From: Chondrosia reniformis | Taxonomy: Eukaryota; Porifera; Demospongiae; Chondrillida; Chondrillidae | Reading direction: 5' to 3' | Length of the DNA stretch: 64,000 nt | NCBI GenBank assembly: GCA_947172415.1 | Contig: OX359196.1 | Coordinates: 3,226,501 to 3,290,500, forward strand | Shown here: piece by piece, positions 7,515 through 58,785 of the stretch | How positions within the stretch are numbered: the first letter of the stretch is position 1 | Layout: each line of letters opens with the position of its first letter | Program-made: the position numbers and the translations under genes | The notes under the pieces: generated by a model | What the model was told of the DNA's origin: nothing | What the model saw: the letters and a program-made list of their open reading frames with translations, nothing else | The model's database searches: none

Positions 7515-7538
7515 TGGCGGGAAAAGATGCCTATAAAT
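7515..7538 (+). promoter_or_regulatory. E2F-like box plus TATA box
   Basis: TGGCGGGAAAA (7515-7525) fits the E2F consensus on the reverse strand (TTTSSCGC), and TATAAAT follows at 7532-7538. A hammerhead-like fold starts 26 bases after the TATA box. Transcription has not been shown. Confidence 0.4.
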
Positions 7539-7563
7539 GAAGACACCTTGAAGACCAACACCA

Positions 7564-7600
7564 GTCACTGAAGAAGACCCCCAGGGTCGAAACGTTTGGC
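7564..7600 (+). ncRNA. Hammerhead-ribozyme-like fold
   Basis: Helix I GTCA/TGGC (one wobble), core CTGAAGA (position 7 is free in hammerheads), an extra A, helix II GACCC/GGGTC with loop CCA, then GAAAC and GTT, giving a predicted cut after 7596. Helix III is only the palindrome ACGT, as in dimer-forming minimal hammerheads. The extra A before helix II departs from the consensus. Confidence 0.45.
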
Positions 7601-7669
7601 AGACAGAAGAATCGGAAAAAACTGCGTCTCTAGACGCTCTAAAAGTCGAAAGATGAACCTTTACGAAGA

Positions 7670-8295
7670 TGCATGCAATTAGTACAAACAACTAATACTT
7701 ACAACTATTACATACAACAAGTACATAGAGTGAGTACATACAACTACTTCTGAGTACATACATGTAGTACATACAATTTGTACCAACAACTAGTAACGAG
7801 TACATAAAAACTATTACATACAACTAATACATACAACTACTACCTACAACTGGAACATAAATCTAGTACTTACAACTAGTACATACATATAGTACCTACA
7901 AATATTAAATATACCTGGTACAAGTACATACAACTGGTACATACAATTGGCACATACAGCTAGTAACAGTACATATAACTAGTAAATACATCTAGTATAT
8001 AAAACTAGTACATTCAACTATTAATTACAAGTAATACATACAACTAATAACTAAACCTAGTAAATATAACAAGTATTAGTACATACAACAAATACATAAA
8101 ACAAGTACACACAACTAGTAGATAGAACTAGTACATACAACTAGTACATTCACTTAGTACATACAACTAGTACATTCACCTAGTACATACAACTAGTCCA
8201 TTAACTAGTACATATACTTAATTCATACAACAAGTACATATAACTAGAAAATATATCTATTATATACAACTAGTAACTAGTTACTAGTAACTACA
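7670..8295 (+). repeat. 13-bp ACTAGT satellite, block 2
   Basis: Continuation of the CTAGTACATACAA-type array between two inserts; no other feature is seen in it. Confidence 0.95.
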
Positions 8296-8562
8296 ACTAG
8301 TTTTTTTCACTACCTATTTTTCTCACGACCTATTTTTAGAACTATTACATCATCATTGGCAACATCACATTACGTCACGATTTCTTACCTCACCAACCAG
8401 TGTGTTTACATCTAAGGTGTAACTTATTTGTGTCATTCAGCTGATGAAGGTCTACAGACCGAAACGTCCTGAAGTAATTCATTAATTGTTTCACGCTGCT
8501 ACGGGAAGCTCATCAACTAATTAACCATATAAACAACGTAGCAATGAACCTATATTCTCTCA
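8296..8562 (+). mobile_element. Short non-satellite insert with a hammerhead-like fold
   Basis: About 265 bases interrupt the array. It contains a CRE-like TTACGTCA near 8373, no open frame, and a full hammerhead-like fold at 8436-8473. CAACTAGT sits at both edges, but this is also the satellite unit, so it is weak evidence for a target-site duplication. It may be a solo terminal repeat of a Penelope-like element or a retrozyme-like RNA insertion. Confidence 0.5.
8436..8473 (+). ncRNA. Hammerhead-ribozyme-like fold (best of the set)
   Basis: Helix I TTCAG/CTGAA has five Watson-Crick pairs. The core CTGATGA (8441-8447) is canonical; one extra A follows. Helix II GGTC/GACC has four pairs with loop TACA, then GAAAC (8461-8465) and GTC (8466-8468), so the predicted cut is after 8468. 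Helix III is the self-complementary ACGT. All conserved core bases are present; the extra A is the only departure. Confidence 0.55.
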
Positions 8563-9502
8563 ACTAGTAACTAGTACATACAACTGGTACATAAAACTTG
8601 AACCAATTACTAGTAAATGTAACTAGTATTAGTACATACAACTAGTACATACAACAAGTGGATACAACTAGTTTGTACAATCAGTAACTACATAAAACTA
8701 GAACCTACAACAAGGAAATGTAACTAATACCTACAACTAGCAAACATAACTAGTACTAGTATATAAATCTAGTACACACAACTAGTACATACAACTACTG
8801 CATGCAACTAGTACATACAAGTAGTACATAAAACTAATACATACAACTAGTATATACAATTAGCACCTGCAACTAGTACATACAACTAGTACACACAACT
8901 TAAAACTATAGCTAGTATTAGTACATACAATTAGTACAAACAACTAGGATATACATACAACACGTACATACAACTAGTACATACAACTAGAACTACAAAT
9001 ATTATATAGAACTAGTTAATAGAATGAGAACTAGTACATACATAGAGTACCTACAAATATTAAATATACCTAGTACCAGTACATACAGATACTACAAACA
9101 ACTAGTATCTATGACTAGTAAATAAAACTAGTATTAGTCCATACAACTAAAACGTACAACTGTCACTTTCAGCTAGTAATGTGTACATATTACTAGTAAA
9201 TACATCTAGTATATGCAACTAGTACATACAACTATTAATTACAAGTAATACATACACCTACTACATAAAACTAGTACATACACATATAACTAGTACATAT
9301 AAATAGTACTTACAACTACTAAATACAACTAGTACATACAAGTGGTACATAACTAGTACATACAACTAGTACATATAATTAGTACATACAAATAGTACAA
9401 ACAGATAGGACATACAACTTGTACTTACCTAGTACCCATTATAAACTAGTACTATAAAGAACCTTTAACTATTACATACAGCCAGAACATATATACAACT
9501 AG
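8563..9502 (+). repeat. 13-bp ACTAGT satellite, block 3
   Basis: Degenerate CTAGTACATACAA-type array running straight into the truncated 5' end of the Penelope-like element. Confidence 0.95.
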
Positions 9503-10983
9503 TGCCTACTGGTGGGCAAGCTAGCCCCTCACTAGTTAAGAAGTGTAGCAATAAGCGGTGTAAAACATGTCCCTCTTTAGTTACTGGCCCTACTTTTAAG
9601 AGTTCAGTTACTGGCAGGACCTATCAAGTCCGTAGCCCTTGTGGTCCCCTAGGATGCCAGAGTAGGAATGTTGTGTATCTTATTACTTGTAAACAATGTG
9701 ATGTACAGTATGTAGGAGAAACCTCTCAGATGCTTAGGAGTAGAATGAACAACCATAGGACTAGTACCAAAGGTTTTAAGCCACTGTATCTTTACAATCA
9801 CTTTAATTCTGATAACCATAGTTTTGATGATGCCTTGATTATGCCCATAGAACAGATACCTGAGACACCTAATTCTACTAGCCTCAGACTACTGAGAGAA
9901 GCGTTCTGGTACAAGGAACTTTGCTCTATTTACCCATATGGACTTAACGATAACATTAAAGGCGTTGGCAATATTTCAAAACTTAAAAAAGAAATCATCG
10001 TATGGAACCTTTTTAATCGCTTATCTCATAAAAGACGGCATCGGCGCTCCAATCTAAAATCGACAGGCAGTATTAATAACGCTGCCTACGACCCTGAATG
10101 GCTCAAAGAACGACTACCACTTTACAAGAACGTGGGCTTTCTAGCCAAACTTAAACGCGATACTTTTGCATTACCAGCTCGACACCTTCATCGTTTGTTA
10201 AACTCGGTACAATGTCTCATCGATACCCCAGAAACACCTTTTCCGCTTAGACTTATGCTAATGATTAAAGACGTTATTAAAGCACGCGCTTCAGCCAGCC
10301 TTCCCAAACACCCAACGAAAACGACAAGTCCAGAAGGGTTTCTTAAAATCGTGTTTCATAATAAAGGTGTAGAAAAAATAGGCCTCTCAGGTATCTTAAA
10401 CCAAAAGTTAGTGTTAGAAACTGTCCCACCCTTTATACAAAACAAAGAGCCCCCATGTGTAGTATATAAGTATACCCAACCAATAGGACCTCAAATCTTT
10501 AACTTTTCACAAGCCTCCAAGTCAGATGTTTTTAGAAAACCAGAACCATGTGAGTGTCACAAGTCCCCCTTCATTTACAAGCCCCTAGGCCATGTTTTAA
10601 CAGGTGATCTACGTATTGTTAGTAACCCAAAACTTAGAAAACTTCTTAAGAAAGGACCAAAATTTAGAGAACCTAATAACTTTAATTGGGTAACTGCTTT
10701 AAAAATGTGTAAGGAAGGTCTTAGAAAATATAAGATTACCTGGGCACGTAGAGAAAATGTATCTACTTCTGTATTTAGTGAGTGGGAAAATGCTGTACTT
10801 AAGAAAATTAATGATAGGATCTCTAAGCTGTCTAAATCGTATACCAAATCCTCAGTAGCCAAGAAGACCCTTACTTGCCCTAAAATTAAGAAATTCTTAG
10901 CAGACCTACATGATAAGTATGTTATAGCCCCTGCCGATAAGGCCTCTAATAATATAATTTTTATATGTAAGTCCTACTATTGA
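9502..10983 (+). pseudogene. Penelope-like element: GIY-YIG nuclease and N-terminal RT region
   Basis: The frame opens with GTG at the satellite junction, so the true start is lost. Cys-rich zinc-binding spacing C15-x4-C20-x2-C23 comes first, then C47, C52, C63, C66. The GIY-YIG core spans about residues 57-85: VVY at 57-59, YVG at 70-72, R81 and H85, with a candidate catalytic Glu in the EAFWYKEL segment. The middle region has a CEC...H motif and GHVLTGDL. The end reaches the RT entry motif PADKASNN. TGA at 10981-10983 then breaks the frame; the next codon continues the same protein in the same frame, so this is a single nonsense change, not a natural end. In this family the nuclease nicks target DNA to prime reverse transcription. 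Expression is unlikely. Confidence 0.8.
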
Positions 10984-12288
10984 CAAATTATTAATGAAGA
11001 ACTAGGCAGTACCTCCACTTATGCTAAATGTACAGTAGAACCCCAACAGTTAATTAGGAAACACATAGATTTCTTAAAACTAGAGAACTTAGAACCTAAA
11101 CCAGACTGGTGTAACCTTCCCTCTTTTTACTGGATGCCTAAGCTACATAAGAACCCTTACAGCTACAGATTCTTAGCCGCCTCTCACAAATGTACTACCA
11201 AACCACTTTCTAGATTTCTAAATTCGGCACTCAGACTAATTCTCAAACATTTTAGAGAATACTGCCTAGGTATATATAGGAATACTGGTGTTAATGCCTT
11301 TTGGATAGTAGAAAACTCACTAGAAGTCTTAGATAGTCTTAGGTCTATACCCACTAGAAAAGCCCAGCTAGCTAGTTTTGATTTTTCTACATTATATACA
11401 GTGATCCCCCATAACCTACTTAAAGATAAGATTACTAACCTAATTCATAGTGCCTATACCTGTAGAAAGTCCCAATATATAGAAGTCTGTCAGGATAAAG
11501 CCTTTTGGTCTAACAATGTCTCCAATAAAGCAGTCACAGCTGTTCATTTAGTAGAGCTCTTTAATTACCTTATTAACAACATTTATGTATGTGTAGACGG
11601 TTCTGTATTTAAGCAATGTGTAGGTATCCCTATGGGTACTGACTGTGCCACTGTAGTTGCTAATCTTTTTCTGTTTGCCTATGAGTATGAGTTTATGAAA
11701 GGACTACTTAAGGATAACATCACCCTAGCTATTAAATTTTCCAATACTTATAGGTATATTGATGACCTTTTATGTATTAACAACAAGGATTTTGAACTGT
11801 CAATTAGTGATATTTACCCCAAAGAACTTATTCTTAAAAAGACAAATACCAGCCCTAAAAAATCCCCCTTTTTAGACTTAGATATAACCATTACTAACAA
11901 TCAATTTATCACTAAAGTATATGATAAGCGAGAGGACTTTAACTTTGATATAGTAAATTTCCCCCATTTAGATAGTAATATTCCTAATACCCCAGCCTAT
12001 GGTGTCTTTATTTCACAACTAATTAGGTATTCTAGAATATGTAGTGACTTCTCCAGTTTTCAGGCTAAAAGTTTGCAGTTATGTAGTAGGCTTATTAAGC
12101 AGGGTTACAAATACTTTAAGCTAAAATCAACCTTTAAAACCTTCCTATCCCGGCAGCCTCTAGTTAGAATCAAGTATAAGCAAAAAGTAGCTAGTATGCT
12201 TAAGGACTGTCCTGTGTTACCCCATATTGTGTTACCCCACCTCCAAAGAAATGTTACTACTAGAAGACCTAAGGGTAGACTTACGTAA
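10984..12288 (+). pseudogene. Penelope-like element: reverse transcriptase core
   Basis: It continues in the frame of the upstream part after one TGA; the first in-frame ATG is at 11134. Motifs in order: MPKLHKNPY...PLSRFLN (RT2-like), motif A FDFSTLYTVIPH with Asp at 11380-11382, motif B GIPMGTDCAT near 11620-11645, motif C YIDD with the Asp pair at 11761-11766, then the conserved tail NFPHLDSNIPNTPAYGVFIS. All catalytic aspartates are present. Motif A in the form xLYTxIPH is typical of Penelope-like RTs and unlike LINE RTs. The frame ends with TAA after RRPKGRLT and has no GIY-YIG behind it. Only one stop in about 930 codons suggests a fairly young copy. Confidence 0.85.
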
Positions 12289-12445: not shown

Positions 12446-12473
12446 TTTTGGCGCCAAAATAGTGTATATAAGG
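12446..12473 (+). promoter_or_regulatory. Palindromic E2F-like site and TATA box in element 3' region
   Basis: TTTTGGCGCCAAAA (12446-12459) is a perfect 14-base palindrome matching an E2F site on both strands. TATATAAGG follows at 12465-12473, only 5 bases later. In Penelope-like elements the terminal repeat can supply the promoter for a downstream tandem copy, which would explain a promoter at the 3' end. Inferred from sequence only. Confidence 0.5.
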
Positions 12474-12549
12474 CCCCTAGATTTAGCATAGTGAGCCAAG
12501 GATTCACAGAAGATCAAGATAAAGAAAAAGACAAAGACTCCCAGGATCA

Positions 12550-12590
12550 CTGATGAAGGGTGGAATTCCCAGAAACGGCTGTCTTACCCA
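12550..12590 (+). ncRNA. Hammerhead-like motif, degenerate
   Basis: CTGATGA (12550-12556), an extra A, helix II GGG/CCC closed by an A-A mismatch, GAAAC (12572-12576), a short helix III AC/GT with loop GGCT, and the cut triplet GTC ending at 12583. Helix I has scattered mismatches. Its position about 75 bases after the TATA box fits the module seen elsewhere in the window. Confidence 0.35.
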
Positions 12591-12738
12591 GTGGAGAAGA
12601 AGATCAAAGAAGGGAAAAGAAGGAAGAAAAGACTACGGTATCTTCATCTAAAGCTCTCTTTAGGTTTAGTTCCCCTATAGGCTCTTTTTACAGAATAGGC
12701 ATATAGCATGTAGGAAAATGGTATCTTAGATTTTTCAT

Positions 12739-15700
12739 ACAACTAGTACAAACAACTAGTACATATAACTAGTACATACAACTAGTACATACAACTTGTA
12801 TTGAGTACATAAAACTAGTACAAACAACTAGTACATACAACTAGTGCGTACAACTAGAACCAACCTAGTACATAGTATAAACTTGTACTAGAACTTACAA
12901 CTAGTACTTACAACTAGTATATACAACTAGTCCATTTAAATGGTGCATACAACTAGTATATACAACTAGTACATATAACTAGTACAAACAACTAGTATAT
13001 ACGCCTAGTTCACACAACTACTAAAGATAACTAGTACATACACATATAAATAGTACATATAAATAGTATATACAACTAGTACATACAACTAGTACGTACA
13101 CAAATTACACCCATCTTGTATGTAAAACTACTACATACAACTTATATCCAGTAAATATAACTAGGATCTACCTAGTACCTTGTATAACTACTACTAGAAC
13201 TTACAACTAGAGCATAGAACTAGTACATACAACTAATACATGCAACTAGTACCTACAACTAGAAAGTATAACTAGTACATACAGTTATTACACCCAACTA
13301 GAACATACAACTAGTACATATAACTCGTACATACAACTAGTACATGCAACTAGTACAAACAATTAGAACTTACAACTAGTACATACACCTAATACATACA
13401 ATTAGTACGTACAACTAGTACATACAACTAGTTACAACAAATAGTAAATAGAGTTAGTACATACAATAATTAGACACAACGTGAACATATAACTACTACA
13501 TTCACATATAACTAGTATATATAAATAGTACATACACCCAGTACATACAACTAGGACACACAAGTAATATATACAACTAGTACACACAACCGGTGCATAC
13601 AACTAGTACATACGACTAGAAACTAGTACATGCAACTAGTACATAGAAAGAGTACATAAGACTCATGCATACAACTAGTACGAACAATAAGACATTAGTA
13701 CATACAGCTAGCTCATAGAATGTGAACATAAAACTAGTAATTATACAACTAGTACTAATCTAGTACATGCAAGTAATATATACATACAACTAGTACATAC
13801 AATTGGTACATAACTAGTCCATGCAACTAGTACAAACAATTTGTTTATACAACTACTACATGCAACTACCACATACAACTTGTACCTACAACTATTATAT
13901 ATAACTAATACTAGTACATAAAACTAGTCCATATACCTAGTCCATAAAATTTGTACATAGAACTAGTACACACAACTACTAGATATAACTAGTACATACA
14001 ACTAGTACATAGAACGAGTACATAAACCAAGTATAGACAACTAGGACATATAACTAGTACATAAACTATTACACACAACTACTACATACAACTTGTACCT
14101 ACAATTATAAATATAACTTGTTCTAGTACATACAACTAGTAAATCAACTAGTACATACAATCAGTACATACAAATAGAACAAACAGCTAGTACATACAAC
14201 TTGTACCCACCTAGTAACCACTATAACTAGTACTAGAACCTATAACTCTTCAATACAGCTAGTATATACAACTAGTACATATACTTATTACATACACATA
14301 TAACTAGTACACACAACTACTACATAAAACTAGTCCATACACAGGTAACTAGTACCTATAAATAGTATATACAACTAGAACATAAACTAGAACATACAAC
14401 TAGTACATTAAACTAGTACTTACAACTAGTACTAGAACCTACAACTAGAACTTACAACTAGTAAATACAACGAGTATCGAGTACATACAATTAGTACATA
14501 CAACTAGTACAAACAAGTAGTACATACAACTAGTCCATACAACTAGTACATACAACTAGTACCCACCTAGTACCTAGTATAACTAGTACTCGAATGTTCA
14601 ACTAGTACTTACAACTAGTACATACAACTAGCAGATTCAACTAGTATACACAACTAGTACATATAACTAGTAAACACAACTGCAACAAAAAACTAATTCA
14701 TACACAGGTAATTACTACATATAAATAGTGTATGCACCTAGAACATTAACTAGAACATACAACTGGTACATTGAACTAGTACATCCAACTAGAACCTAAC
14801 AAGTACCTAGTACAACGCGTACTAGAACATACAACTAGTACTTAAAGAAGTACATATAAATAGTGCATACAACTAGTACATACAACAAGTAGAAACAACT
14901 AGACATTCAACTAGTACATACAACTACTAAATATAACAAGTACATACAACTGGAACACACATCTAGTACATACAAATAATAAGTACAACTAGTACATATA
15001 AATAGTGCATATATACAACTAGTACATGAAATTGGTACATACAACTAGTACATACAACTACTAAATATAACTAGTACATACACCGATTACAAACAAATAG
15101 AACATACAACTAGTACATATAACTCGTACATACAAGTAGTACACAAAACTAGTATCGCGTACATACAACTAGTACATACAACTAGTACAAACAATTAGAA
15201 CATACAACCAGTACATATAACTAGGACATACAACTATTACACACAACTAGTATTGAGTACATACAACTAGTACATACAACTAGTACAAACAATTAGAACA
15301 TACAACTAGTACATACAACTGGAACATACAACTAGTACATTCAACTAATACATACAACTAGTACATATAACTAGTACACACAACTAGTTACTAGTACATT
15401 CAGCTAGTACATACAACTAGTTATGAGTACATACATGTAGTACATGCTATTTGTACCAACAACTAGTAACGAGTACATAAAAACTATTACATACAAATAA
15501 TACATACAACTACTACCTACAACTGGAACATAAATCTAGTACCTACAACTAGTACATACATATAGTACCTACAAATACCTAGTACCAGTACATACAACTG
15601 GTACATACAACTGGTATCTACGACTAGTAAATAAAACTAGTATTAGTACATACAACTAGAACATACAACTGGCATATACAGCTAGTAATGAGTAAATATA

Positions 15701-16897
15701 ACTAGTAAATACATCTAGTATATACAACTAGTAAATACAACTATTAATTACAATTAATACATTCAACTAATAATTAAACCTAGTAAATATAACTAGTAGT
15801 AGTACATACAACTAGTATACACAACTAATACCTGCGACTAGTAAATATAACAAGTATTAGTACATACAACTAGTACATAAACAAGAACACACAACTAGTA
15901 GATACAACTACTAATGAGTACATAGAAGTAGTACACACATCTAGTGCATACAACTAGTACGTACAAATAGTTCATACAACTAGAACATTAAACTAGTACA
16001 TATACATAGTACATACAACTAATACATATAACTAGTTCATAAAACTAGTACACGCAATATATAATACATACAACTGGTATACACAAATAGTACATACAAC
16101 TTTTACATAAAACTAGAACCACAACTAGTACATACAACTAGTATACATCTAGTATATACATCTAGAGTTCATACAACTAGTACACACCACTAGTACATTC
16201 ACCTAGTATATACAACTAATCCATTAACTAGTACATACACCTAATACATACAACAAGTACATATAACTAGAAAACACAACTATATAGTGCATACAACAAG
16301 TTACTGTTACTTACCATTAGTGCACACAACTGGAACATACAACTTGAACCTACAACAAGGAAATATTACAACTAGAAACATAACTAGTACTAGTACTTAA
16401 ATCTAGCACACACAACTAGTATATACAACAATTGCATGCAACTAGTACCTACAACTAGTAGATACAACTACTACATACAGCCTAAAACTATAGCTAGTAC
16501 TAGTACATACAAAGAATACATACAAATAGTACATGCAATTAGTACATAAAATTAGTACAAACAACTAGGATTTACATACAACTAGTACATACAACTAATA
16601 CATAAAACTAGTACATAGAACTATTACGTACAACTAGTACAAACAGCTAGAACATACAACTAGTACATGCACCTAGAACATGCAACAATTAAATGCAACT
16701 AGTATATACAACGAGTATATACAACTAGACACATACAACTAGTACATACAACTAGTTACTACTACATACAACTAGTACAAACAAATAGTAACTACAACTG
16801 GTAAATATACCTATTATATACAACACACTACTAGTACATATAACAAGTACGTACATATATAACTACTACTATAAATATTACATACACCTAGTATATA
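12739..16897 (+). repeat. 13-bp ACTAGT satellite, block 4
   Basis: CTAGTACATACAA-type units with the same longer pattern as in block 1 (the GAACAATAAGACATTAG marker near 13680). Nothing else is seen in these 4.2 kb. Confidence 0.97.
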
Positions 16898-17144
16898 CTA
16901 GAGAATAATAAAAATTTTCTACAAAAATAGTAGAAGATGTAGGGATGGCACAAAAAGCATAGAAACAAGAAAGGGATGTTACACAGTGAAGAATTATTTA
17001 TGCATGAATCATACAACACCCTTGCTTGTAGGATTCGTGCATAAATAATTCTTCACTGTGTAACATCCCTTTCTTGTTTCTATGCTTTTTGTGCCATCCC
17101 TACATCTTCTACTATTTTTGTAGAAAATTTTTATTATTCTCTAG
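16898..17144. repeat. Long near-perfect palindrome in element F
   Basis: The arms begin CTAGAGAATAATAAAAATTT and end with its exact complement. Pairing runs almost to a 9-base centre. The RNA or single-stranded DNA would form a hairpin of roughly 119 pairs. Confidence 0.9.
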
Positions 17145-17673
17145 TTTCTGTACTTTTTATGGAGCATAAGCTAGGAATTATATAATAGACCATTTTGGTT
17201 TCGCAATATTCGACTGAATATGACGTCATTAAAATGGCGAATTTATTGAATTAATTGACTCTTGGGCCACGAAAACCGTCATGCTCAATAATAACGTTAT
17301 CGCTCTCGCTTCTACAAAAGAATACAGCGCGGAAAATTTGGAGTATTTTCGCTTCAGAAGTATCCCGAAAACTTACTTCCTTGTTTAGTTACAGCGGGCG
17401 AAGAAGATGAAGAAGAAGATGAAGAAGAAGATGAAGAAGATGAAGAAGAAGAAAACGAAAATGGAATATTTCAAAGTTCGCCCATTTGCTAGCGGAACAC
17501 GGTCGCTTGCCTTTAAGGCCAGTTTATAGCATGGCTGGTGTATTTTTAACTATACATAGCTTTTTTTCGGCGATTTTCAGCCTATTTCGGATTTTCGCTC
17601 TTATACCAATGTATAGGGAAAACGAAACAACCCGTACCATCCCTACATAGAGAGTACTACCGTACTCTCTGAT
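16898..17673 (+). mobile_element. Fold-back element F, copy 1
   Basis: About 776 bases. One end is a 247-bp near-perfect palindrome (16898-17144, loop CACCCTTGC). The other end is a small hairpin GAGAGTAC/GTACTCTC followed by TGATAA. ATGTAGGGATGG occurs near each end in opposite orientation. The body has an expanded GAA/GAT run at about 17400-17455 that copy 2 lacks. No protein is encoded. It is antiparallel to the copy at 37811-38558, so the shared ends define the element. Transposon class is uncertain. Confidence 0.7.
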
Positions 17674-20600
17674 AACTAGTTCATACAACTAGTACATACA
17701 ACTAGTACACACAAGTAGTACATACAACTAGTACCCACAACTGGTACACACAACAATTAAACACAACCAATACAAACAACTAGTACATACAAATAGTACA
17801 AACAACTAGTACATACAACTAGAACCCACCTAGTACCTGGTACAACTAGCACTAGAACCAACAACAATTACCTAGAACTAGTACATACAACTAGTATTGA
17901 GTACATAGAACTAGTACAAACAACTAGTACATACAACTAGTACCTAGTATAACTAGTACTAGAACCTACAACTAGTACATACAACTAGTACATACAACTA
18001 GTACATACAACTAGTACATATATATGATGCGTATAACTAGTACATAAAACTAGTACCACAACTAGAAAATACAACGATGACATACAACTAGTGCATACAA
18101 CTAGTACATACAACAATTACACAAAACTAATACATATATTCAGTACATACACATATAACTAGTACATATATATAGTACTTACACCTAGTACATAGGACTA
18201 GTACAAACAACTAGTACATACAATTAGTACACAGCTAATACATACAACTAGTATATACAATGGTTGATAATGGCTACATACACCTAGTTCACACAACCAA
18301 TACCTACAATTAGTTAATACAACTAGTACTAGTACAAAACACTAGTAGATACAATTAGTATATACACCTACTCCATACAACTAGTACATACAACTAGTAC
18401 ATATAATTAGTGCATACAATTAGTACATACAAATAATACATGCAATTAGTACATACAAATAGAACAAACAGGTAGTACATACAACTTGCACTTACCTAGT
18501 ACCCACTATAACTAGTACCATAAAGAACCTATAACTATTACATACAGCTAGAGCATATATACAACTAGTACATATAACTAGTACTTACAACTCGTTCATA
18601 TTATTAGTGCATACAACTAGTACACACAACTAGTACCTGTAAACAGTACAGACAACGACTATATACAACTAGTACACACAACATACATACAACTAATACA
18701 AACAATTAGAACATAAAACTAGTACATACATATAATACATACAATTAGTATATGCAACTAGAACCTACAACTAGTTACTGGTACAACAACTAGTACATAC
18801 AACTAGTAACTACAAATAGTAAATATTGTGAGTACATACAATCGGACACAACTAGAACATATAACTAGGACACCTAGTACATACAACTAAGATATACAAG
18901 TATAAACAGCTGGTGCATAGAACTAGAAACTAGTATATACATACAACTAGTACATAGCTAGTACATACAAGTAATAAATACATACAACTAGTACATACAA
19001 TTGGTACATAACTAGTACATGCAACTAGTTCTTCAACTGGTACATAAAATTCATACATGCAACTTCTACATGCAACTACAACATACAACTATACCAAAAA
19101 CTATTAAATATAACTAATACCAGTACATACAACTAGTAGAGAAAACTAGTGTATACACCTAGTACATAAAATTAGTACATAGAACTAGTACATAGAACGA
19201 GTACATAAAACTAGTACATTAAACTAGTGCATACAAGTGGTACATAACTAGTACATACAAATAGTTCATACAACTAGTAGATATAATTTGTATTAGTATA
19301 TACAATTAGTACAATCAACTGGTACGTACAATTAGTACATAGAAATAGTACAAACAGCTAGTACATACAACTTCTATCTATCTAGTACCCACTATACCTA
19401 GTGCTAGAATCTGTAACTATTACTTACAGCTAGTACATACAACTAGTACATATAACTAGTACATTCAACTAGTACATATACTTATTACAAACACATATAA
19501 CTAGTACATACATAATAGTACATCAACGTGTCTCTAGTACATTCAACTAGGATCTACCTAGTACCTAGTATAACTAGAACTAGAACCTACAACTAGTATA
19601 TACAAGTAAGACATATAACTAGTACATACACATATAACTAGTATACATAAATAGTACATACACCTAGTACATACAACTAGGACATTCAAGTAATACATAC
19701 AACTAGTACGCACAACTAGTGCATACAACTAGTAGATACAACTAGAAACTAGTACATGCAACTATTACATAGAAAGCGTACATAAAACTCATACATAACA
19801 CTAGGACATAAAAGTAATATATACAACTAGTACACACAACCAGTGCATACAACTTGAACGAACAACCAAACACTAGTACATACAGCTAGTTTATAGAAGG
19901 TGAAATGTAAAACTACCACATAAAACTAGTATATATATACAACTAGTGCACAGCTAGGACATACAAGTTATATATACATACAACTAGTATATACAATTGC
20001 TATATAACTAGTACATGCAACTATTTCATACAACTAGTACATGCAATTCGTACATACAACTACTACATGCAACTACTACATACAAGTTGTACCTACAACT
20101 ATTAAATATAACTAATACTAGTACATACAACTAGTATATAAACTAGTATATACACCTAGTACATAAAATTAGCACATACAACTAGTATACACAACTTCTA
20201 CATATAACTAGTACATACAACTAGTAAATACAACTACTACATACCACTAGTACATAGAACAAGTACATACACCTAGTACATACCACGAGGACATACAAGT
20301 AATATATACAACTAGTACACACAACCAGTGCATACAACTAGTACATACAACTAGAAACTAGTACATGCAACAAGTACATAGTAAGAGTACATCAAACTCA
20401 TACATACCACATCAAGTCACCAGTACATACAGCTAGTTCATAGAACTACTACATAAAACTAGTATAAACAACTAGTACACAGTTAGTACATACAAGTAAT
20501 GTATACATAGAACTAGTGCATACAACTAGTACATAAACTATTACATTCAACTATTACATACAACTACTACATACAACTTGTACCTACAACTAGTAAATAT

Positions 20601-23600
20601 AATTAGTACTAGTACATACAACTAGTAAAATCAACTAGTACAGTCAATTAGTACATACAAATAGTACAAACAGCTAGTACATACAACTTGTGCCCACCTA
20701 GTAACCACTATATCTAGTCCTAGAAACTATAATTACAACATACACCTAGTACATACAACTAGTACATAAACTAGAACATACCATTAGTACATTGAACTAG
20801 TACATACAACTAGAACCTATCTAATACCTAGTACAACTAGTACTAGAACCTACAACTAGTACTTACAACTAGTACATTCAACAAGTATCGAGTATATACA
20901 ACTAGTACTTACAACTAGTACATAGAAATAGAAACTAGTGCAAACAACTAGTACATAGAAAGAGTACATGAAGCTAATCCATATAATTAGTACATAGCTG
21001 GTATATACAAGTAATATACACAATTGGTACATATCTAGTACAGCAACTAGTACATACAACTAGTACAAAGAACGAGTACATAAAGGTAGTACATACAACT
21101 AGTGTATACAGCTGGTACATAAGTAGTACATACAACTAGTACATACAACCAGTACATATAACTAGTACATACAACTATTACATACAACTACTACATACAA
21201 CTAGTGTCTACAACTAGTAGAAATAAATTGTACTAGTACATACAATTAGTACAATCAAGTAGTACATACAATTAGTACAATGAAGTAGTACATATAATTA
21301 GTACATACAAATAATACAAACATCTAGTACATACAACTAGTACATATAAGTAGTACACAACTAGTACGTATACTTATTACATACACATATAACTAGTACA
21401 TACTAAAAATAAAAGTACATCAACATATATCTAGTACTTGCAACTAGGATCTACCTAGTCCCTAGTATAACTAGAACTAGAATCTACAACTAGTACATAT
21501 AACTAGTACATACAACTAGTACATACAACTAGTAAATACAACTACTAAATATAACTAGGACATAAAACAATTACACACAACTAGTACATATAAGTAGTAC
21601 GTACAACTAGTATATACAACAAGTACATACAACTAGTACATACAACTAGTAAATAGTACACACAACTAGTAAAAACAATTTGAACAGACAACTAGTACAT
21701 AAAACGACTACTTACAACCAGTACACACAACTAGTACATATTACTAGTACATACAACTAGTACTTACAACAAGTACATACAACTAGTACATACAACTAGT
21801 AAATAATACTCACAACTAGTACATACAACTAGTAGGTAGTACATACAACTAGTACATATACCTACAACTAGTTAATATTACCAGTAATAGTACCTACAAC
21901 TATTTCATACAACTAGTACATAAATAGTGCATGCAACTAGTTAACACAACTAGCACAAACAATTAAAACATAACTAGTACATACAACTAGTATATACAAC
22001 TAGAACATACAATTGGTACACACAACCATTACATTAAACCTGTACATACAACTTGTACCTACAACCAGTAAATAAACAAAGTACTACTCCATACAACTAG
22101 TCCATGTAACTGGTTCATACAACTAGTAAATATAACTACTACATACAACTAGTACAATGAACTAGTCCATAAAACTAGTTCATACAACTTCTACGTACAT
22201 TTCGTATCTTCATTGAGTAAATATAACTAGGACTAGTTCATACAACTAGTACATAAAACTAGACCTACAATTAGCACATACAACTAGTGCAGACAACTAG
22301 TACATATTACTGGTTCATACAACTAGTACATCCAACCAGGCCATGCAATTAGTACATACAATTAGTAAATAGTACATTAAACTAGTACATATAACTAGTA
22401 CATACAAGTAGTACCTACAACTTGTTAATATTACCAGTACATACAACTAGTGCCTACAACTTGTACACACAACTAGTACGTACAACTAGTACATACATTT
22501 AGAAGGTACAACTAGAACTTATAACTAGTAACTTATACATATAAATTAGGACATATAACTAGTACATAAAAATAGTACATGCAACCAGAACATACAACTA
22601 GTACATACAACTAGTAAATAGTACATACAACTAGTTCATATAACTAGTACATACAAGTAGTACCTACAACTATTTAATATTACCAGTAATAGTACCTACA
22701 ACTATTTAATATTACCAGTAATAGTACCTACAACTAGTTCATACAACTAGTTCATACAACTAGTACATAAAAGGTGCATAAAACTAGTTAATACAACTAG
22801 CACGAACAACTACAACATAACTAGTACATACAACTAGTATATACAACTAGAACATAGAATTGGTACGTACACCTATTACATTAAACCTGTACATACAAAT
22901 TTTACCTACAACTAGTAAATAAACCTAGTACAAGTGCATACAGCTAGTACATGTTACTAGTTCATACAACTAGTAAATATAACTACTTAATAGAACTAGT
23001 ACAATCAACTAGTCCAAAACACTAGTTTATACAAGTAGTACATACATTTAGTATCTTCCACGAGTAAATATAACTAGTACTAGTTCATACAACTAATACA
23101 TAAAACTAGTACATAACACTAGCAACGAGTACATACGATTACTCACGACTAGTACATAAAACTACTTCATACAACTAGTACGTATAACTATAACTTACAA
23201 CTAGTACATACGACTAGTATCTACAACTAGTACATAAAACTAGACCTAAAATTAGTACATACAACTGTACACACAAGTACTGCATGTAACTAGTACATAT
23301 AACTAGTACATACACATATAACTAGTATATATAAATAGTACATACACTTAGTATATACAACTAGGACATACAAGCAATATTTGCAACTAGTACACGCAAC
23401 CAGTGCACACAACTAGCTAGAAACTAGTACATGCAACTAGTACATAGAAAGAGATTATAAAACTCATGAATACAACTAGTATGAACAACAAGAAACTAGT
23501 ACATACAGCTAGTTCATAGAAAGTGAACATAAAACTACCACATAAAACTAGTATATACAACTAGTACACAGCTAGGACATACAATTAATATATACATACA

Positions 23601-23827
23601 ACCAGTACATACAATTCGTACATACAACTACTACATGCAACTACAACATACAACTATTAAGTATACCTAATACTAGTACATACAACTAGTACATAAAACT
23701 AGTACATACTCCTAGTGCATAAAATTAGTACATACAACTAGTACACATGAGTACTGCATATAACTAGTACATATAACTAGTACATACACATCTAACTAGT
23801 ATATATGAATAGTACATACACCTAGTA
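17674..23827 (+). repeat. 13-bp ACTAGT satellite, block 5
   Basis: The longest block of the first half. The longer pattern with a GAACAACA-type marker recurs near 19860 and 23485. An apparent minus-strand frame at 20856-21059 (MYVLVAVLDMYQL...) is translated satellite and is not a gene. Confidence 0.97.
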
Positions 23828-32875: not shown

Positions 32876-33124
32876 CTATGCTTTAATTTCAAAACTTATA
32901 ATAGCCGCTTTTTCCTCGTCTTCGTGAGTCATAACTCGTAGTTCATTCCAGCCTGGATCCTCAGAATGGATAACATCCATTATTTCCTTTGTTGTCATCC
33001 CTTCGATTATCTGTATAAAAACAATTAAATTCTTAATTGAACATTTCCATAGCCCTAATTCACCAGCTTACTAGTGGTTCTAGATGATCCTTAGCTAGAT
33101 CCGCTTGCGCAATTATTCTTACAT
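32876..33124 (-). CDS. Two predicted terminal exons split by a 61-base intron
   Basis: The exon at 33072-33124 (53 bases; VRIIAQADLAKDHLEPL) ends at a GTAAGC donor. The intron 33011-33071 ends TTTTTATACAG. The exon at 32876-33010 reads IIEGMTTKEIMDVIHSEDPG through EEKAAIISFEIKA to TAG at 32876-32878. The reading phase matches across the intron, and an upstream acceptor (TTATAG) precedes the first exon. No earlier exon was found; a dispersed repeat starts about 190 bases upstream. No known family is recognised. It is supported by phase and splice signals only. Confidence 0.4.
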
Positions 33125-53080: not shown

Positions 53081-53186
53081 TGGATTAAAAAAGTTCGAGC
53101 CAAAATAAGATCCTTCCTTGTTAGATTTGTTATAGAAATCATTCCGACCGACCGAATCAAACGGATATCTGTTCTCTAGAGCGGCA

Positions 53187-54635
53187 ATGCCCTGTTGTGG
53201 ATGTAACTGCAATGGTCGCTGTAAGAACTGCTCCTGCGTGAAGGAAGGGAAGAAGTGTGACAGTTGTCTCCCTCACCAGACAGGGAAATGCTTCAACTTG
53301 AATCGCGAAGAATCATCTTCTGAACAATCCTTGGAATTACAACCTACCGAATCAGTAAGAACTCAAAGTGATCAGCCGCCCGTTTCCTGTACGACAGTTT
53401 CAGACGATAAATGGCCATCTCCTGATCCACAGACGGCCGCTTTTCGATGGGGATCACTCGATGGGAAGGTCTTTTCTGATCTCACAGTGGCTGCATACGA
53501 TGAAGTTATACACTGGAAAAGAAACCTCTTTCTAGTGCCATCAGGATCTTCTGGGAAAAACTTTGTGGCAGAACTGGCCCGCCTCTGGCAAGCCTTCGCT
53601 GACTGCTCTACCCTTGAAGGCATTGCGATGAAGGCAAGTACCATCTTACAGGTCTTGCTTCTACAAAAACCAAGTAAACACAGCAAAAGCAAAGACCATG
53701 TAACACACCTGAAAAGGAGGCTTGACCTTTGGCACAGAGGGGACATCCAGTCACTCCTAAGGGAAGGTCGTTGCATTCAGGAACATCTCCACAGATCACC
53801 AAGACCAACTGACAGTGAGTTAATTGCACAAACCTTCAAACGCTTGATGATGCAAGGGAAGACCCAAAGTGCACTAAGACACCTGTCTAGAAAAACAAGT
53901 GGTGGGGTCCTAACTCTGGAAGACCTCGTGCCAGAGACAACCGATAGTGGTGAACGACAATTCCGCTCCACCCTTAGTGTACTACGGGACAAACATCCTA
54001 CAGGAAAGCCACCTAATGAAGATTCCCTGCTTAACAACACCACCCCCCAACTGGTTGACCCTATTCTTTTTGAACATTTGAATGCAGACACTATCCGCCA
54101 AGCAGCCATGCGTATTCATGGAGCAGCAGGTCCATCAGGACTAGACGCTCATGCATGGAAGCGATTGTGCTCATCTTTTGGACAGGCTTCATACAGCCTC
54201 TGCACTGCAATGGCTGAGGTGGGTCGCCGCATATGTACCACATTTGTCCATCCAAACAGCTTGAGTGCTTTTGTCGCTTGCCGACTAATCCCTTTAGACA
54301 AATGCCCTGGAGTAAGACCTATAGGAGTAGGGGAGGTCCCAAGACGAATCATAGCAAAGTCTGTGCTTCGTATCATTGGTTGGGATATTGGAAAAGCGGC
54401 AGACCCTCTTCAGCTATGTTCTGGGCAGGAGGGGGGATGTGAAGCAGCAGTACATGCCATGCGACAGATATTCAGAATCCCTGAGACTGAAGGCATCCTC
54501 CTGGTGGATGCCACAAATGCCTTTAACACCATTAACAGGCAGGCTGCCCTCCATAACATCAGCATCCTATGTCCTCCTTTAGCACCTATTTTGATCAACA
54601 CCTATAGAGCACCAGTCAGGAAGTGGAGAAATTGA
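53187..54635 (+). CDS. LINE-like element: CXC-like domain and reverse transcriptase N-terminal part
   Basis: The ATG at 53187 is the first Met after an in-frame TAG. Residues 3-37 are Cys-rich (CCGCNCNGRCKNC, then CDSCLPHQTGKC), resembling tesmin/TSO1-type CXC zinc domains that bind DNA; target-site recognition is a reasonable inference. A linker follows to about residue 280. RT starts near GPSGLDAHAWKRL, with RLIPLDKCPGVRPIGVGEVP (motifs 1-2) and motif A LLVDATNAFNTI, catalytic Asp at residue 441 (54507-54509). The frame ends artificially at APVRKWRN, where it shifts relative to the downstream part. Overlapping frames on both strands (53372-54601) are shadows. Confidence 0.85.
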   Translation: MPCCGCNCNGRCKNCSCVKEGKKCDSCLPHQTGKCFNLNREESSSEQSLELQPTESVRTQSDQPPVSCTTVSDDKWPSPDPQTAAFRWGSLDGKVFSDLTVAAYDEVIHWKRNLFLVPSGSSGKNFVAELARLWQAFADCSTLEGIAMKASTILQVLLLQKPSKHSKSKDHVTHLKRRLDLWHRGDIQSLLREGRCIQEHLHRSPRPTDSELIAQTFKRLMMQGKTQSALRHLSRKTSGGVLTLEDLVPETTDSGERQFRSTLSVLRDKHPTGKPPNEDSLLNNTTPQLVDPILFEHLNADTIRQAAMRIHGAAGPSGLDAHAWKRLCSSFGQASYSLCTAMAEVGRRICTTFVHPNSLSAFVACRLIPLDKCPGVRPIGVGEVPRRIIAKSVLRIIGWDIGKAADPLQLCSGQEGGCEAAVHAMRQIFRIPETEGILLVDATNAFNTINRQAALHNISILCPPLAPILINTYRAPVRKWRN

Positions 54636-56280
54636 ATCAACGGAAGGTACAACACAAGGGGACCCCTTGGCAATGGCCATGTACGCTCTGGCAATTACCC
54701 CATTGATCCAGCAGCTGAGAACAAGAAATCCAGAAGCCAGTCAAGTGTGGTTTGCCGACGATGCGACATGTGCTGGTACCTGCACACAACTGAGAGCTTG
54801 GTGGGAAAATCTATCATTAAGTGGACCCACCTTCGGATATCATCCCAATGGTTCCAAAACACATCTAGTGGTGAAAGAAGAACATGAGGAAAGGGCCAGA
54901 CAGATATTTAGAGACACCGACATACAAATCTCCATTCATGGGAAACGCCACCTAGGTGCTGCCCTCGGTTCCAGGACCTTTACCGAGGAATATGTCCGTG
55001 ACAAAGTACAAGGTTGGCTCCAGGAGATATCTCACCTATCCGAAATAGCCATCTCCCAGCCACATGCTGCCTACGCTGCCTTTGTACATGGCCTATCTAG
55101 TCGCTGGTCATACCTGTCACGAACAATTCCAGACATTGATGATTTACTACTACCTCTGGAGGCTGCCATTCAGCAAACCCTGATTCCTGCCCTGACAGGT
55201 CGGGCGACCTGCTCTGACCTTGAGTGCGAACTGCTGGCCCTTCCTGCTAGATTAGGTGGGATGGCATTGGCAAACCCCGCAACAAAAGCTGGCGAAATTT
55301 TTGCCGCCTCAGAAGAATTTACAATGCCCCTTGTAGCCCTGATAGTCTCACAAGAGTCCAATCAAGTGATTGAGGCCGGCCAGATCATGTCCATCAAGCA
55401 AGACATTCGGCATAAGAACAGACAGAAGCAGGATAAGAAAGCCAAAGAGGTATACGATCATCTCTCCCCCCATCTGCAGCGTGCAGTTGACCTGGCCAAA
55501 GAGAAAGGATCTTCTTCCTGGCTGACAGTCACTCCATTGGAAGAGCATGGATTCTACCTAAACAAGGGGGAATTTCGAGATGCACTATGCCTAAGATATG
55601 GATGGACCCTAAACAACCCTCCCCAAACATGCAACTGTGGAACAGCGTTCACTGTTGATCATGCCATGATATGTCCAATGGGTGGCTTTCCGATCATCCA
55701 CCACAATGAGATCCGTGATATCACTGCCTCATTGCTCACCGAGGTATGCCACAATGTTGCCACAGAACCTCCCTTACAGCCACTGACAGGTGAAACATTT
55801 CATCTACGTTCAGCAAATGTTGCAGATGGTGCTCGCCCAGACATCCGTGCCAGGGGTTTTTGGAGCAAAGCTCAGGACGCATTCTTTGATATACGGGTTT
55901 TTCACCCAAACGCGCCCAGCAACCGTTCCTCCTCATTGGCAACTGCATACAAGAAGCATGAGGCTGCAAAGAAAAGAGAATATGCCCAGCGCATACGGGA
56001 TGTTGAACATGGAGTATTTACACCCATTGTCCTCTCCACTGTAGGAAGTATGGGAAGGGAGGCAACCATCTTCTACAAGAGGCTGGCAGACCTGGTTGCA
56101 CAGAAGCAGCAAAGGCCATATGCCCTTGTCATGAATTGGTTGAGATGCCGTCTGTCGTTTGCTATACTTAGGTCCGCCATCATGTGCATCCGTGGAAGTC
56201 GTTCCTCTCTACATCACCCAATCTGTGAGGTGGACATATCTCTTGCTGCCTCTGAGGGACGCATCTCAACAAACCATTGA
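54601..56280 (+). CDS. LINE-like element: RT C-terminal part, CCHC knuckle and restriction-like nuclease
   Basis: It continues the upstream protein in another frame; the first sensible codons are at 54601. Motif B reads STEGTTQGDPLAMAMYALA, and motif C is WFADD with the Asp pair at 54757-54762. There is a knuckle C-x-C-x7-H-x4-C (CNCGTAFTVDHAMIC, about 55630-55674). Next is RPDIRARGFW...FFDIRV, with PD at 55837-55842 and Asp at 55888-55890, then KKREYAQRI; these match the PD...D/K pattern of restriction-like LINE nucleases, which nick the target for primed reverse transcription. It ends in TGA at 56278-56280. Catalytic residues look intact; only the frameshift (probably a small deletion after APVR) prevents one polyprotein. 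There is no natural ATG for a separate protein. Confidence 0.85.
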   Translation, partial: PIEHQSGSGEIESTEGTTQGDPLAMAMYALAITPLIQQLRTRNPEASQVWFADDATCAGTCTQLRAWWENLSLSGPTFGYHPNGSKTHLVVKEEHEERARQIFRDTDIQISIHGKRHLGAALGSRTFTEEYVRDKVQGWLQEISHLSEIAISQPHAAYAAFVHGLSSRWSYLSRTIPDIDDLLLPLEAAIQQTLIPALTGRATCSDLECELLALPARLGGMALANPATKAGEIFAASEEFTMPLVALIVSQESNQVIEAGQIMSIKQDIRHKNRQKQDKKAKEVYDHLSPHLQRAVDLAKEKGSSSWLTVTPLEEHGFYLNKGEFRDALCLRYGWTLNNPPQTCNCGTAFTVDHAMICPMGGFPIIHHNEIRDITASLLTEVCHNVATEPPLQPLTGETFHLRSANVADGARPDIRARGFWSKAQDAFFDIRVFHPNAPSNRSSSLATAYKKHEAAKKREYAQRIRDVEHGVFTPIVLSTVGSMGREATIFYKRLADLVAQKQQRPYALVMNWLRCRLSFAILRSAIMCIRGSRSSLHHPICEVDISLAASEGRISTNH

Positions 56281-56462: not shown

Positions 56463-57500
56463 ACTATTACATACAATCAGTACATACACCTAATATATAC
56501 AACTAGTTATTAGAACTAGTACATACAACTAGTACATAACAAATACATACAGTTATTACATGCAACTTGTACACACAACTAGTGCATAACTAGTTTATAC
56601 AACTAGTACACACAACTAGTGCATAACTAGTTTATACAACTAGTACATTCAACTAGTACATATAATTAGTACATTCAACTATTATATAGAACTATAATAA
56701 GCAATTAGTACATATAACTATTACATTCAACTAGTACATATATCCAGTACCTATAACCAGTTAATATAACTAGTACTTGTACATACAAATAGTACCTCCT
56801 TAGTAACTAGTTTTGCTAATACCAGAACCTACAACAAGTAGATATAACTAGTACATACAACTAGTAAATACAACTAGTAGATCAAACTAGTGCCTACAAC
56901 TAGTACATGGAACTAGCAACAGGTACATATACGTAGTACATACAACTAGTACATGCAAGTGGTACACACAAATAGTACACACACCTAGTACATTCAACCA
57001 GAGCATAAAACTAGTAGACACCAACTACTACATATAACTAGTATATACAACTAGCACATACAACTAGGCTAACAACTACTTCATACAACTTGTACTTACA
57101 ACTAGTACCTGGTCCATATAAATAGTACATGCATCTAGTAAATACCACTAGTACACACAACTAGTACATACAACTAGTACATACAACTAGCACATACAAC
57201 TAGGCTAACAACTACTTCATACAACTTGTACTTACAACTAGTACCTATTATTGAAACATACGCATAAAATTAGTACATATAACTAGTACATTCACCTACT
57301 ACATATAACTAGTACATACACATATATCCAATTATTATAAATAGTACGTGCAACTAGTACATGCACCTAGTTCATAAAACTAGTACATACAACTAGTATA
57401 TACACCCAACTAGTACATATAACTAGTACATATAACTAGTACATATAACTAGTGCACACACCTACTACATACAACTAATACATAAAATTATAACTAGTAC
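56463..57500 (+). repeat. 13-bp ACTAGT satellite, block 11
   Basis: Array running into the assembly gap. It contains short direct duplications (CACAACTAGTGCATAACTAG twice near 56575-56635). Confidence 0.95.
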
Positions 57501-57700
57501 NNNNNNNNNNNNNNNNNNNNNNNNNNNNNNNNNNNNNNNNNNNNNNNNNNNNNNNNNNNNNNNNNNNNNNNNNNNNNNNNNNNNNNNNNNNNNNNNNNNN
57601 NNNNNNNNNNNNNNNNNNNNNNNNNNNNNNNNNNNNNNNNNNNNNNNNNNNNNNNNNNNNNNNNNNNNNNNNNNNNNNNNNNNNNNNNNNNNNNNNNNNN
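57501..57700. other. Assembly gap (200 N)
   Basis: Exactly 200 N, a typical fixed-size scaffold gap; the true length is unknown. The sequence changes from satellite to Penelope-like coding DNA across it. Confidence 0.99.
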
Positions 57701-57867
57701 ACTGCCGCCTGTGCCAGGTGTCCACTCACTAGAGCCCGTTTGTGTTCCTTCAGCCGTTGGGCCAGTGTTCTGCCAGTCTGGCCTACATACACTGATGGAT
57801 GTTCAGCAGCCATATCACCAGAGGTGCCTGCTGGAATCGTGGCACATCCGATCTGAATTGAACACAA
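57701..57867 (-). pseudogene. GIY-YIG nuclease fragment of a Penelope-like element
   Basis: Minus-strand frame with SVYVGQTGRTLAQRLKEHKR, the YVG...R...EHKR part of a GIY-YIG nuclease as found at the C terminus of classic Penelope-like elements. It differs from the N-terminal nuclease of the element at 9503. It runs into the gap at 57700, so its end is unseen. The sequence before it (MCSIQIGC...) does not look like RT, so it is a fragment or follows an intron. Confidence 0.6.
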
Positions 57868-58075
57868 TGAATAGAGATGAAGGCTACCTCCCCCGGTTTA
57901 TGACCTCCTCGTCCACCAGCCTCGATCCTCAGACTAGTCAAGCCCCACCCACCCCTTAACCCATCCAGTCACACACTTTCACTATTTATTCCTTACTTAA
58001 TGCACTGTTTGTTTTATCTTACTGCATAAAATATACCTCACGTGACCACCCACACTCCCAGCTTCCCACCCATTA

Positions 58076-58126
58076 TTTTCCCGCCCACAGCCATCTCACC
58101 TGCCCCTCCCCCTACCGATATATAAG
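58076..58126 (+). promoter_or_regulatory. E2F-like box and TATA box
   Basis: TTTTCCCGCC at 58076-58085 and TATATAAG at 58119-58126, 23 bases before the hammerhead-like fold. It has the same plan as at 7515 and 12446, with unrelated surrounding sequence. Confidence 0.4.
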
Positions 58127-58148
58127 TCACCATGCCCTGTAATCTCAC

Positions 58149-58190
58149 TACCACTAATGAAGACCCGAGATTGGGTCGAAACGTTTGGTA
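58149..58190 (+). ncRNA. Hammerhead-like fold, probably inactive
   Basis: Helix I TACCA/TGGTA (five pairs), core CTAATGA, an extra A, helix II GACCC/GGGTC, GAAAC, cut triplet GTT ending 58185. The G5 of the core is A here, a change expected to abolish cleavage. Stems are intact. Confidence 0.4.
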
Positions 58191-58262
58191 ATCATTGACA
58201 AGCGACATCTCTCCCAATCCCTTGACTAGTGCAGTTCCAGATTCTGAAGCACATATACCTAT

Positions 58263-58415
58263 TATAAACAATTAGTACATGCAACTATTACATTCAACTA
58301 GTACGTATAAGTAGTACCTACAAATATTTAATATAACTAGTACTTGTACATTCACCTAATACCTACTTAATATCTGGTTTTACTAGTACTAGAAACCTAC
58401 AACTAGTACATATAA
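58263..58415 (+). repeat. 13-bp ACTAGT satellite, block 12
   Basis: Short satellite stretch between the Penelope-like fragment and palindromic element copy 2. Confidence 0.9.
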
Positions 58416-58785
58416 CTTTGTAAAGGTTCATCTTTCGACTTTTAGAGGGTCTAGAGACTCAGTTTTTTCCAATTCTTCTGTCTGCCAAACGTTTCGACCC
58501 TGGGGGTTTTCTTTAGTGACTGGTGGTGGTCTTCAAGGTGTCTTCGGCATCTTTTCCCGCCATTTTTGATGACATCACTGATGAAGTAATCGAAAATGGC
58601 GGGAAAAGATGCCTATAAATGAAGAAACCTTGAAGACCACCACCAGTCACTGAAGAAGACCCCCAGGGTCGAAACGTTTGGCAAACAGAAGAATTGTAAA
58701 AAACTGCGTCTCTAGACGCTCTAAAAGTCGAAAGATGAACCTTTACAAAGATAAGTTCTACGCAGTTGGAAGAAATCCTTATTCC
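58416..58785. mobile_element. Palindromic element P, copy 2
   Basis: 370 bases, antiparallel to copy 1 at 7132-7669. The arms meet around CGCCATTTT/AAAATGGCG near 58560-58600. It is flanked by an exact 14-base repeat ACTAGTACATATAA (58402-58415 and 58786-58799), although that string is common in the satellite. The longer terminus (ending AAGAAATCCTTATTCC) is on the right here and on the left in copy 1. The minus frame at 58513-58812 is spurious. Confidence 0.7.
58646..58682 (+). ncRNA. Hammerhead-like fold in element P copy 2
   Basis: Same fold as at 7564-7600: helix I GTCA/TGGC, CTGAAGA, extra A, helix II GACCC/GGGTC, GAAAC, GTT. Preceded by GCGGGAAAA (58599-58607) and TATAAAT (58614-58620). 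Confidence 0.45.

Follow-up and report, generated by a model that had tools for sequence, protein, structure and literature searches.

TATA boxes at a set distance from minimal type I hammerheads, with E2F-like boxes in some families, in probable Penelope-like pseudo-LTRs of the sponge Chondrosia reniformis

Minimal type I hammerhead ribozymes are known from the pseudo-long terminal repeats (pLTRs) of Penelope-like elements (PLEs) (Cervera and De la Pena, 2014; Lunse, 2017; via PMC6155905 and PMC7761336). According to these two reviews they lack a helix III loop, possibly cleave as dimers, and occur in thousands of copies in many animal genomes. As far as the review text available to us goes, it is silent on a fixed spacing between TATA box and ribozyme, on transcription starts mapped from copy ends, and on E2F boxes. 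Here we analyze a 64,000-nt stretch of the genome of the sponge Chondrosia reniformis (hereafter the window; contig OX359196.1 of assembly GCA_947172415.1, positions 3,226,501-3,290,500 of the forward strand). Its hammerhead-bearing pLTRs, and related copies elsewhere in the genome, probably contain a TATA-driven promoter whose start lies on a minimal type I hammerhead or just upstream of one. PLE hammerheads as such are already known; the TATA-ribozyme geometry and the accompanying E2F-like boxes look new.

Several described systems share parts of this arrangement. The pLTR of Adineta vaga Pen2 carries a TATATATA box 20 bp before an initiator-like TCACT, and its pLTRs are inverted, with palindromes at the junction; the accessible part of that paper mentions the hammerhead 0 times, and E2F was not searched for there (PMC3846280). 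E2F sites in a retroelement promoter are already known for Cer1, a Ty3/gypsy LTR retrotransposon of C. elegans whose LTRs keep predicted E2F sites; mutation of GGCGCGAA shifted reporter expression from germline to soma, a result stated as unpublished in the available text (PMC3315495). Cer1 differs in being an LTR retroelement, and hammerheads were not searched for in that source. The plant retrozyme NbRZ1 combines promoter and hammerhead in one LTR and starts transcription upstream of the cleavage site, but it is non-autonomous, forms circular RNA and cleaves efficiently in plant cells, as far as the accessible text describes it (PMC12029980). According to the portion of a review available to us, the plant retrozyme hammerhead is of type III, unlike the type I fold here (PMC6155905). 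In Chondrosia, ORFs (open reading frames) lie beside units of families A and C, yet many copies are short solo units. The literature searched yielded no work joining PLE promoters with E2F, and earlier notice of the start-site geometry in the founding PLE hammerhead papers is possible. Of three papers that mention Penelope-like elements as well as E2F, only one also mentions hammerheads, and in its available text E2F concerns Brassica transposons (PMC12477314).

A sequence-only reading of the window had proposed four modules, each consisting of an E2F-like box, a TATA box and a hammerhead-like fold, at 7515-7600, 12446-12590, 58076-58190 and 58599-58682; all four are present at these positions. 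Its statement that the first and last are copies of one element (family A) and that the other two, family B (58154) and family C (12550), have unrelated flanks was likewise borne out. The modules look like pLTRs of three unrelated PLE families, with the following features:

7166-7670, strand not assigned: family A PLE remnant; inverted arms 7166-7312 and 7524-7670 flank an ORF 3' end
7516-7525, + strand: E2F-like box GGCGGGAAAA of family A, at -52 to -43 from the ribozyme core
7532-7538, + strand: TATA box TATAAAT of family A; predicted start, with copy ends, at ~7562-7563
7564-7600, + strand: minimal type I hammerhead of family A; stem I GUCA/UGGC, predicted cleavage at 7596/7597
9469-12288, + strand: Penelope-like ORF of family C with one internal stop; N-terminal GIY-YIG, then a reverse transcriptase-like part
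12446-12459, + strand: E2F-like palindrome TTTTGGCGCCAAAA of family C
12465-12471, + strand: TATA box TATATAA, family C; copy starts lie ~30 nt further on, near 12495
12550-12583, + strand: hammerhead-like core of family C; predicted cleavage at 12583/12584, no hammerhead fold on its own
58076-58085, - strand: E2F-like box of family B (TTTTCCCGCC on the + strand)
58119-58125, + strand: TATA box TATATAA of family B
58150-58189, + strand: family B hammerhead; this copy carries CTAATGA instead of CTGATGA
58413-58753, strand not assigned: second family A copy with head-to-head inverted pLTRs (arms 58413-58545 and 58621-58753; inner arms 58546-58577 and 58582-58613)
58553-58560, - strand: E2F-like box in the inverted arm of the second family A copy
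58599-58606, + strand: E2F-like box of the second family A copy
58614-58620, + strand: TATA box of the second family A copy
58646-58682, + strand: hammerhead of the second family A copy

The distance between TATA box and first C of the hammerhead core is -36 in both family A copies (cores at 7568 and 58650), -35 in family B and -85 in family C. Among 14 representative families it lies between -35 and -43 in 11, with H (-28), C (-85) and L106 (-52/-46) as exceptions; this spread is partly imposed, because the search that supplied five of the 14 (A3, D2, E, G and H) demanded TATAA 27-57 nt upstream. We searched the genome (117.4 Mb, 15 contigs) with patterns and used the reversed patterns as controls. 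The PLE hammerhead pattern CTGANGAAG-N4..34-GAAACG matched 2889 places versus 32 for its reverse, and TATAA-N22..52-hammerhead matched 579 versus 0. These counts are of repeat copies, with up to 100 places per search among the matches listed. In viral contigs one hammerhead pattern had 0 matches and one TATA-hammerhead pattern 4, which appear chance-like.

Where copies end at their 5' side bears on where transcription starts. In 63 family A copies found via the ribozyme (L009-L088 and the window; some paired at one locus, one only A-like), 32 break 0-7 nt before the core, 7 break at 26-48 and 24 run on; a peak at 57 nt is artificial and stems from a single extra A that the reference copy carries. 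Because they were found through the ribozyme, these copies cannot show trimmed ends. Two other sets, found by exact patterns for sequence downstream of the ribozyme, are unbiased in this respect; from these, 20 of 122 family A and 30 of 327 family C copies were examined. In family A, 12 run on, one ends at -79, three at -10 to -6 and four at +19 to +60. In family C, 14 end at -57 to -51, 8 run on, two end at -43 and -37, and six at +24 to +39. The main start clusters lie ~30 nt after TATA in both families. Fetched copies of family B show no breaks at the ribozyme, and its start is thus predicted from TATA alone. At L009, L066 and L070, family A forms head-to-head palindromes whose junction is the 5' edge of the ribozyme and whose center lies near the predicted start. 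These palindromes would fit a reverse transcriptase that reaches the RNA end and then turns back; self-priming has been argued for Penelope pLTR palindromes in the available part of PMC3846280. If copy ends equal RNA 5' ends, as we infer, genomic copy ends mark the transcription start. As a rule, the ribozyme is retained in inserted copies.

The fold is a minimal type I hammerhead, whose core and stems I and II have covariation support and whose self-cleavage is predicted. Eleven family sequences were aligned on this model and compared with 500 shuffles; L112 was kept although it is misaligned in stem II. Paired cells make up 96% of the alignment and 28 cells carry double changes (8.2 +- 2.6 in shuffles); these two measures and the covariation score were each reached by 0/500 shuffles. 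The weaker measures, double-change pairs (7/9) and pair types, were reached by 32 and 65 of 500 shuffles. Double changes occur in all four stem I pairs, and the signal is lost when partner strands are slid. Stem III is merely the palindrome ACGT in the aligned sequences. Stems I and II are present in the lowest-energy folds of A, A3, B and the core at 8441. A descriptor scan recovered the hammerheads of the four modules and also an inverted hammerhead partner at 7243-7268(-). The G at position 5 of the core (G5) is essential in hammerheads. The family B core in the window reads CTAATGA, compared with CTGATGA in 13 fetched cores of this family; the change hits G5, so this copy is probably inactive, and we rejected it as a working ribozyme.

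Families A and C were filed as PLE pLTRs because of ORF matches, inverted arms and an alternative tail-like 3' end. The N-terminus of the family C ORF matches GIY-YIG (PF01541, 1e-4, 23 bits against a cut-off of 22.6), and for a reverse transcriptase the ORF matched only RdRP_1 (9.6e-6). An order with N-terminal GIY-YIG is called Naiad-like, a name for which the literature searched yielded no paper. Beside a family A unit at L022 lies a reverse transcriptase ORF (RVT_1, 1.3e-10), separated from the unit by stops in that copy; no GIY-YIG was seen for family A. The family A ORF in the window (7302-7573) stays open through the E2F box and TATA, and its stop TGA falls inside the ribozyme core (CACTGA). 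The inverted arms framing the two family A copies are 147 nt long and 99% complementary, and 133 nt long and 94% complementary. The 3' end of family A units comes in two forms, one of which has a tail-like extension; Penelope elements, as the available text of PMC3846280 describes them, feature inverted pLTRs and a tail. Family B is assigned provisionally to PLEs by its hammerhead and promoter layout only; a nearby minus-strand GIY-YIG fragment scores 17.2 bits, below the cut-off. At L034 a family A unit is joined, inverted, to a family C unit in a chimeric insertion.

E2F-like boxes cluster at these modules. GCGSSAAA occurs 7 times in the window, compared with a mean of 0.25 and a largest count of 2 in 100 shuffles. 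Six of the seven lie inside the named modules or their element (7517+, 12447-/12451+, 58077-, 58553- and 58599+, the 12447-/12451+ pair being one palindrome), and the seventh, 55300-, lies outside module elements. The descriptor scan found at least two additional PLE-type hammerhead cores in the window, 1479+ and 8441+, and the 150 nt upstream of each lack the strict box:

1479-1503, + strand: PLE-type hammerhead-like core without E2F box
8436-8473, + strand: PLE-type hammerhead without E2F box; best Rfam match Hammerhead_HH9, E 0.0025, below the gathering score

The strict box thus accompanies three of the five hammerhead families of the window, a count that excludes a descriptor match at 33043-33094(-) judged chance-like. 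Across the loci compared, 18 boxes fall in the 26.0 kb within 300 nt of hammerheads versus 4 in 218.0 kb elsewhere, the former figure being inflated since loci were picked for family A copies. Genome-wide, the A-type module GCGGGAAA-TATAA-CTGANGAAG has 257 matches and the C-type module GGCGCCAA-TATATAA-CTGANGAAG has 285, each against 0 for the reversed pattern. The pattern GGCGCCAA-N22..52-TATAA-CTGANGAAG has 11 against 0, of which 10 belong to one further family (first seen at L114) and one is a family C copy. All three patterns demand only the start of the ribozyme core. The concentration of E2F-like boxes at hammerheads supports the sequence-only reading; a general combination is not supported, the strict box occurring in three of seven superfamilies.

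These seven TATA-bearing superfamilies were grouped by flanks on our own judgement. A, B and C have the strict box, the family of L114 adds a relaxed one (4/7), and the other three have neither. Against dinucleotide shuffles, the strict box in three of seven has P 1.5e-6 to 3.6e-6 before correction for motif choice, a value that overstates the case because the motif was chosen by eye in A, B and C, the families of its discovery. Hammerhead loci whose TATA was not usable, or whose sequence was cut at the ribozyme, were left out of this count, including L089, L091, L093, L094, L097, L102, L103, L107, L111-L113, L123, L124, L126 and L190-L192; the upstream sequence searched at left-out hammerhead loci has no strict box, save L092, where different DNA precedes a family C copy and a box lies at -147. 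Seven of 20 loci from the TATAA-hammerhead search carry the strict box, namely six of family A3 and the D2 locus (L186), where it lies at -138 in the inverted partner.

Within the A superfamily, a loose sorting rule gives retention of the strict box in 25/40 A/A2-like, 5/8 A3 and 1/4 other copies, and several variants are single changes at CpG. Families A and A3 both keep GGCGGGAAA although their ORFs read the box in different codon phases, which points to constraint on the DNA. In divergent A subfamilies with unlike spacers, the box lies 13-16, mostly 15, from TATA (among the 100 of 257 matches listed, in a set found by demanding the box). In the A, B and C superfamilies the box is upstream of TATA, with only 6-7 bp between them in the window copies of A and C. 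The codon phases and the conserved distance are the best sign of constraint. Several family B copies, such as L021, L062 and L072, have two boxes. The host genome has five matches to the E2F/DP DNA-binding domain (PF02319, best 8e-26). The sequence-only reading suggested that E2F sites could tie retroelement transcription to S phase; whether E2F acts at the box is, taken by itself, evenly balanced in our judgement. Promoter-like stretches without an E2F box at L090, L193, L194 and window positions 8346-8400 share ATGACATCATC/TTACATCATC, possibly the site of a different factor.

A number of results weigh against a ribozyme-proximal promoter with an E2F-like box. Just 3/20 unbiased family A copies begin at -10 to -6, and of the six family C starts at +24 to +39, two (2/30) lie within 1 nt of the predicted cleavage at +34, so that some trimming is possible. 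The A and A3 folds are no better than shuffles in energy (z -0.9 and -1.2), and the family C core does not form the hammerhead stems in its lowest-energy fold. Sampled families have an extra A after the core when compared with Rfam HH9; the search pattern demanded this base, which may affect catalysis. No hammerhead family reached the Rfam gathering score in the window (0 matches). In a permissive scan of two 101-base stretches, the best hammerhead match, 8423-8491, scored 20.8 bits against a gathering score of 52 for HH9, and 7540-7640 gave no hammerhead match up to E 10. Searches against solved structures contributed little. Outside the discovery set, 0/4 superfamilies have the strict box and 1/4 the relaxed one; 10 further TATA-bearing loci have neither (0/10), and the strict box is absent from family D, family E and loci L190-L192. 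The module counts are copies, not independent events.

The sequence-only reading suggested that the ribozyme could trim the 5' end of the transcript. If every promoter transcript were trimmed and the resulting 5'-OH RNA copied, which we consider unlikely, the position of the ribozyme, where a leader of 35-90 nt could be removed, would make sense, as would the six of 30 family C copies that begin inside or just past it (among them the two at predicted cleavage) and the four of 20 family A copies at +19 to +60. However, 0/20 unbiased family A copies begin at the predicted cleavage point, +29, and 14/30 family C and 32/63 family A copies begin at the TATA-predicted start with the ribozyme kept. 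In the lizard PLE PAc, moreover, ribozyme mutants insert normally in vitro, and the accessible text reports no reads beginning or ending at the cleavage site (PMC11167929). Trimming is thus not supported as the chief way in which new copies arise, since the largest start cluster coincides with the TATA-predicted start and retains the ribozyme; a minor trimming role may exist. We regard it as very improbable that RNA structure halting the reverse transcriptase, and not the end of the RNA, accounts for the copy ends at the ribozyme. A polymerase heading to the RNA 5' end would meet the fold from its 3' side and halt there instead of at the 5' edge, and the main family C cluster, 30 nt past TATA, precedes the fold by ~50 nt, although the minority of ends inside or just past the ribozyme would suit such stops.

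The GGCGGGAA/GGCGCCAA boxes could also be the site of another factor, or coding or promoter sequence inherited without a regulatory role; we see this as a real possibility, short of an even chance, and it is compatible with the promoter-ribozyme part. A box is lacking in families D, L105, L106/8441 and L090/L193 despite their TATA and hammerhead, the family A box is also coding, and the motif was chosen after looking. Set against these points are the different codon phases in A and A3, the palindromic full site in C, the two boxes in several B copies, the TATA distance kept while the spacer diverges, and the dinucleotide-shuffle P values given above, uncorrected for motif choice.

In the reading we prefer, and hold to be fairly likely as regards promoter and ribozyme, each pLTR would carry a TATA-driven promoter, probably for RNA polymerase II, that starts at or near the ribozyme. 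Transcription would start at the first hammerhead nucleotides in family A, judged by copy ends, and is predicted to do so in A3, B and D from TATA spacing; in family C copy ends would place it ~50-55 nt upstream of the hammerhead. Uncleaved RNAs that keep the ribozyme would be the main insertion templates, with which the PAc mutant result agrees. The ribozyme would act mainly on multimeric or read-through RNA, two hammerheads pairing as dimers. E2F/DP may bind the box in some families (A, B and C) and favor expression in cycling cells. A bolder version, which we put forward only tentatively, holds that several unrelated PLE families have E2F-controlled TATA promoters, convergent or from a deep ancestor. 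Their transcripts would begin exactly on the hammerhead; the ribozyme would be cap-proximal, stay in the template and cut tandem multimers as dimers, and E2F would tie RNA supply to cycling or germ cells. The kept promoter-ribozyme spacing and the start-recording copy ends offer a direct route to ask whether cut or uncut RNA is copied. If the E2F boxes work, a host regulator of the cell cycle or germline would be linked to a retroelement class outside the LTR elements.

The surroundings of the modules show other features. Long stretches of the window (2437-6953, 7672-8301, 12736-23788 and others) consist of a diverged 13-bp minisatellite, (CAACTAGTACATA)n, which also lies close behind several PLE 3' ends (near 7672, 12736, 58260 and 58790). 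Another retroelement-like ORF pair at 53136-56280 has an RVT_1 match below cut-off and a cysteine-rich start, and is not Penelope-like in appearance. A 200-base N run at 57501-57700 lies in or beside the minus-strand GIY-YIG-like fragment adjoining the family B module. In many family C copies (L149-L168 and L203-L212) the preceding host DNA ends in CAT or a CATG-like sequence, a possible target preference.

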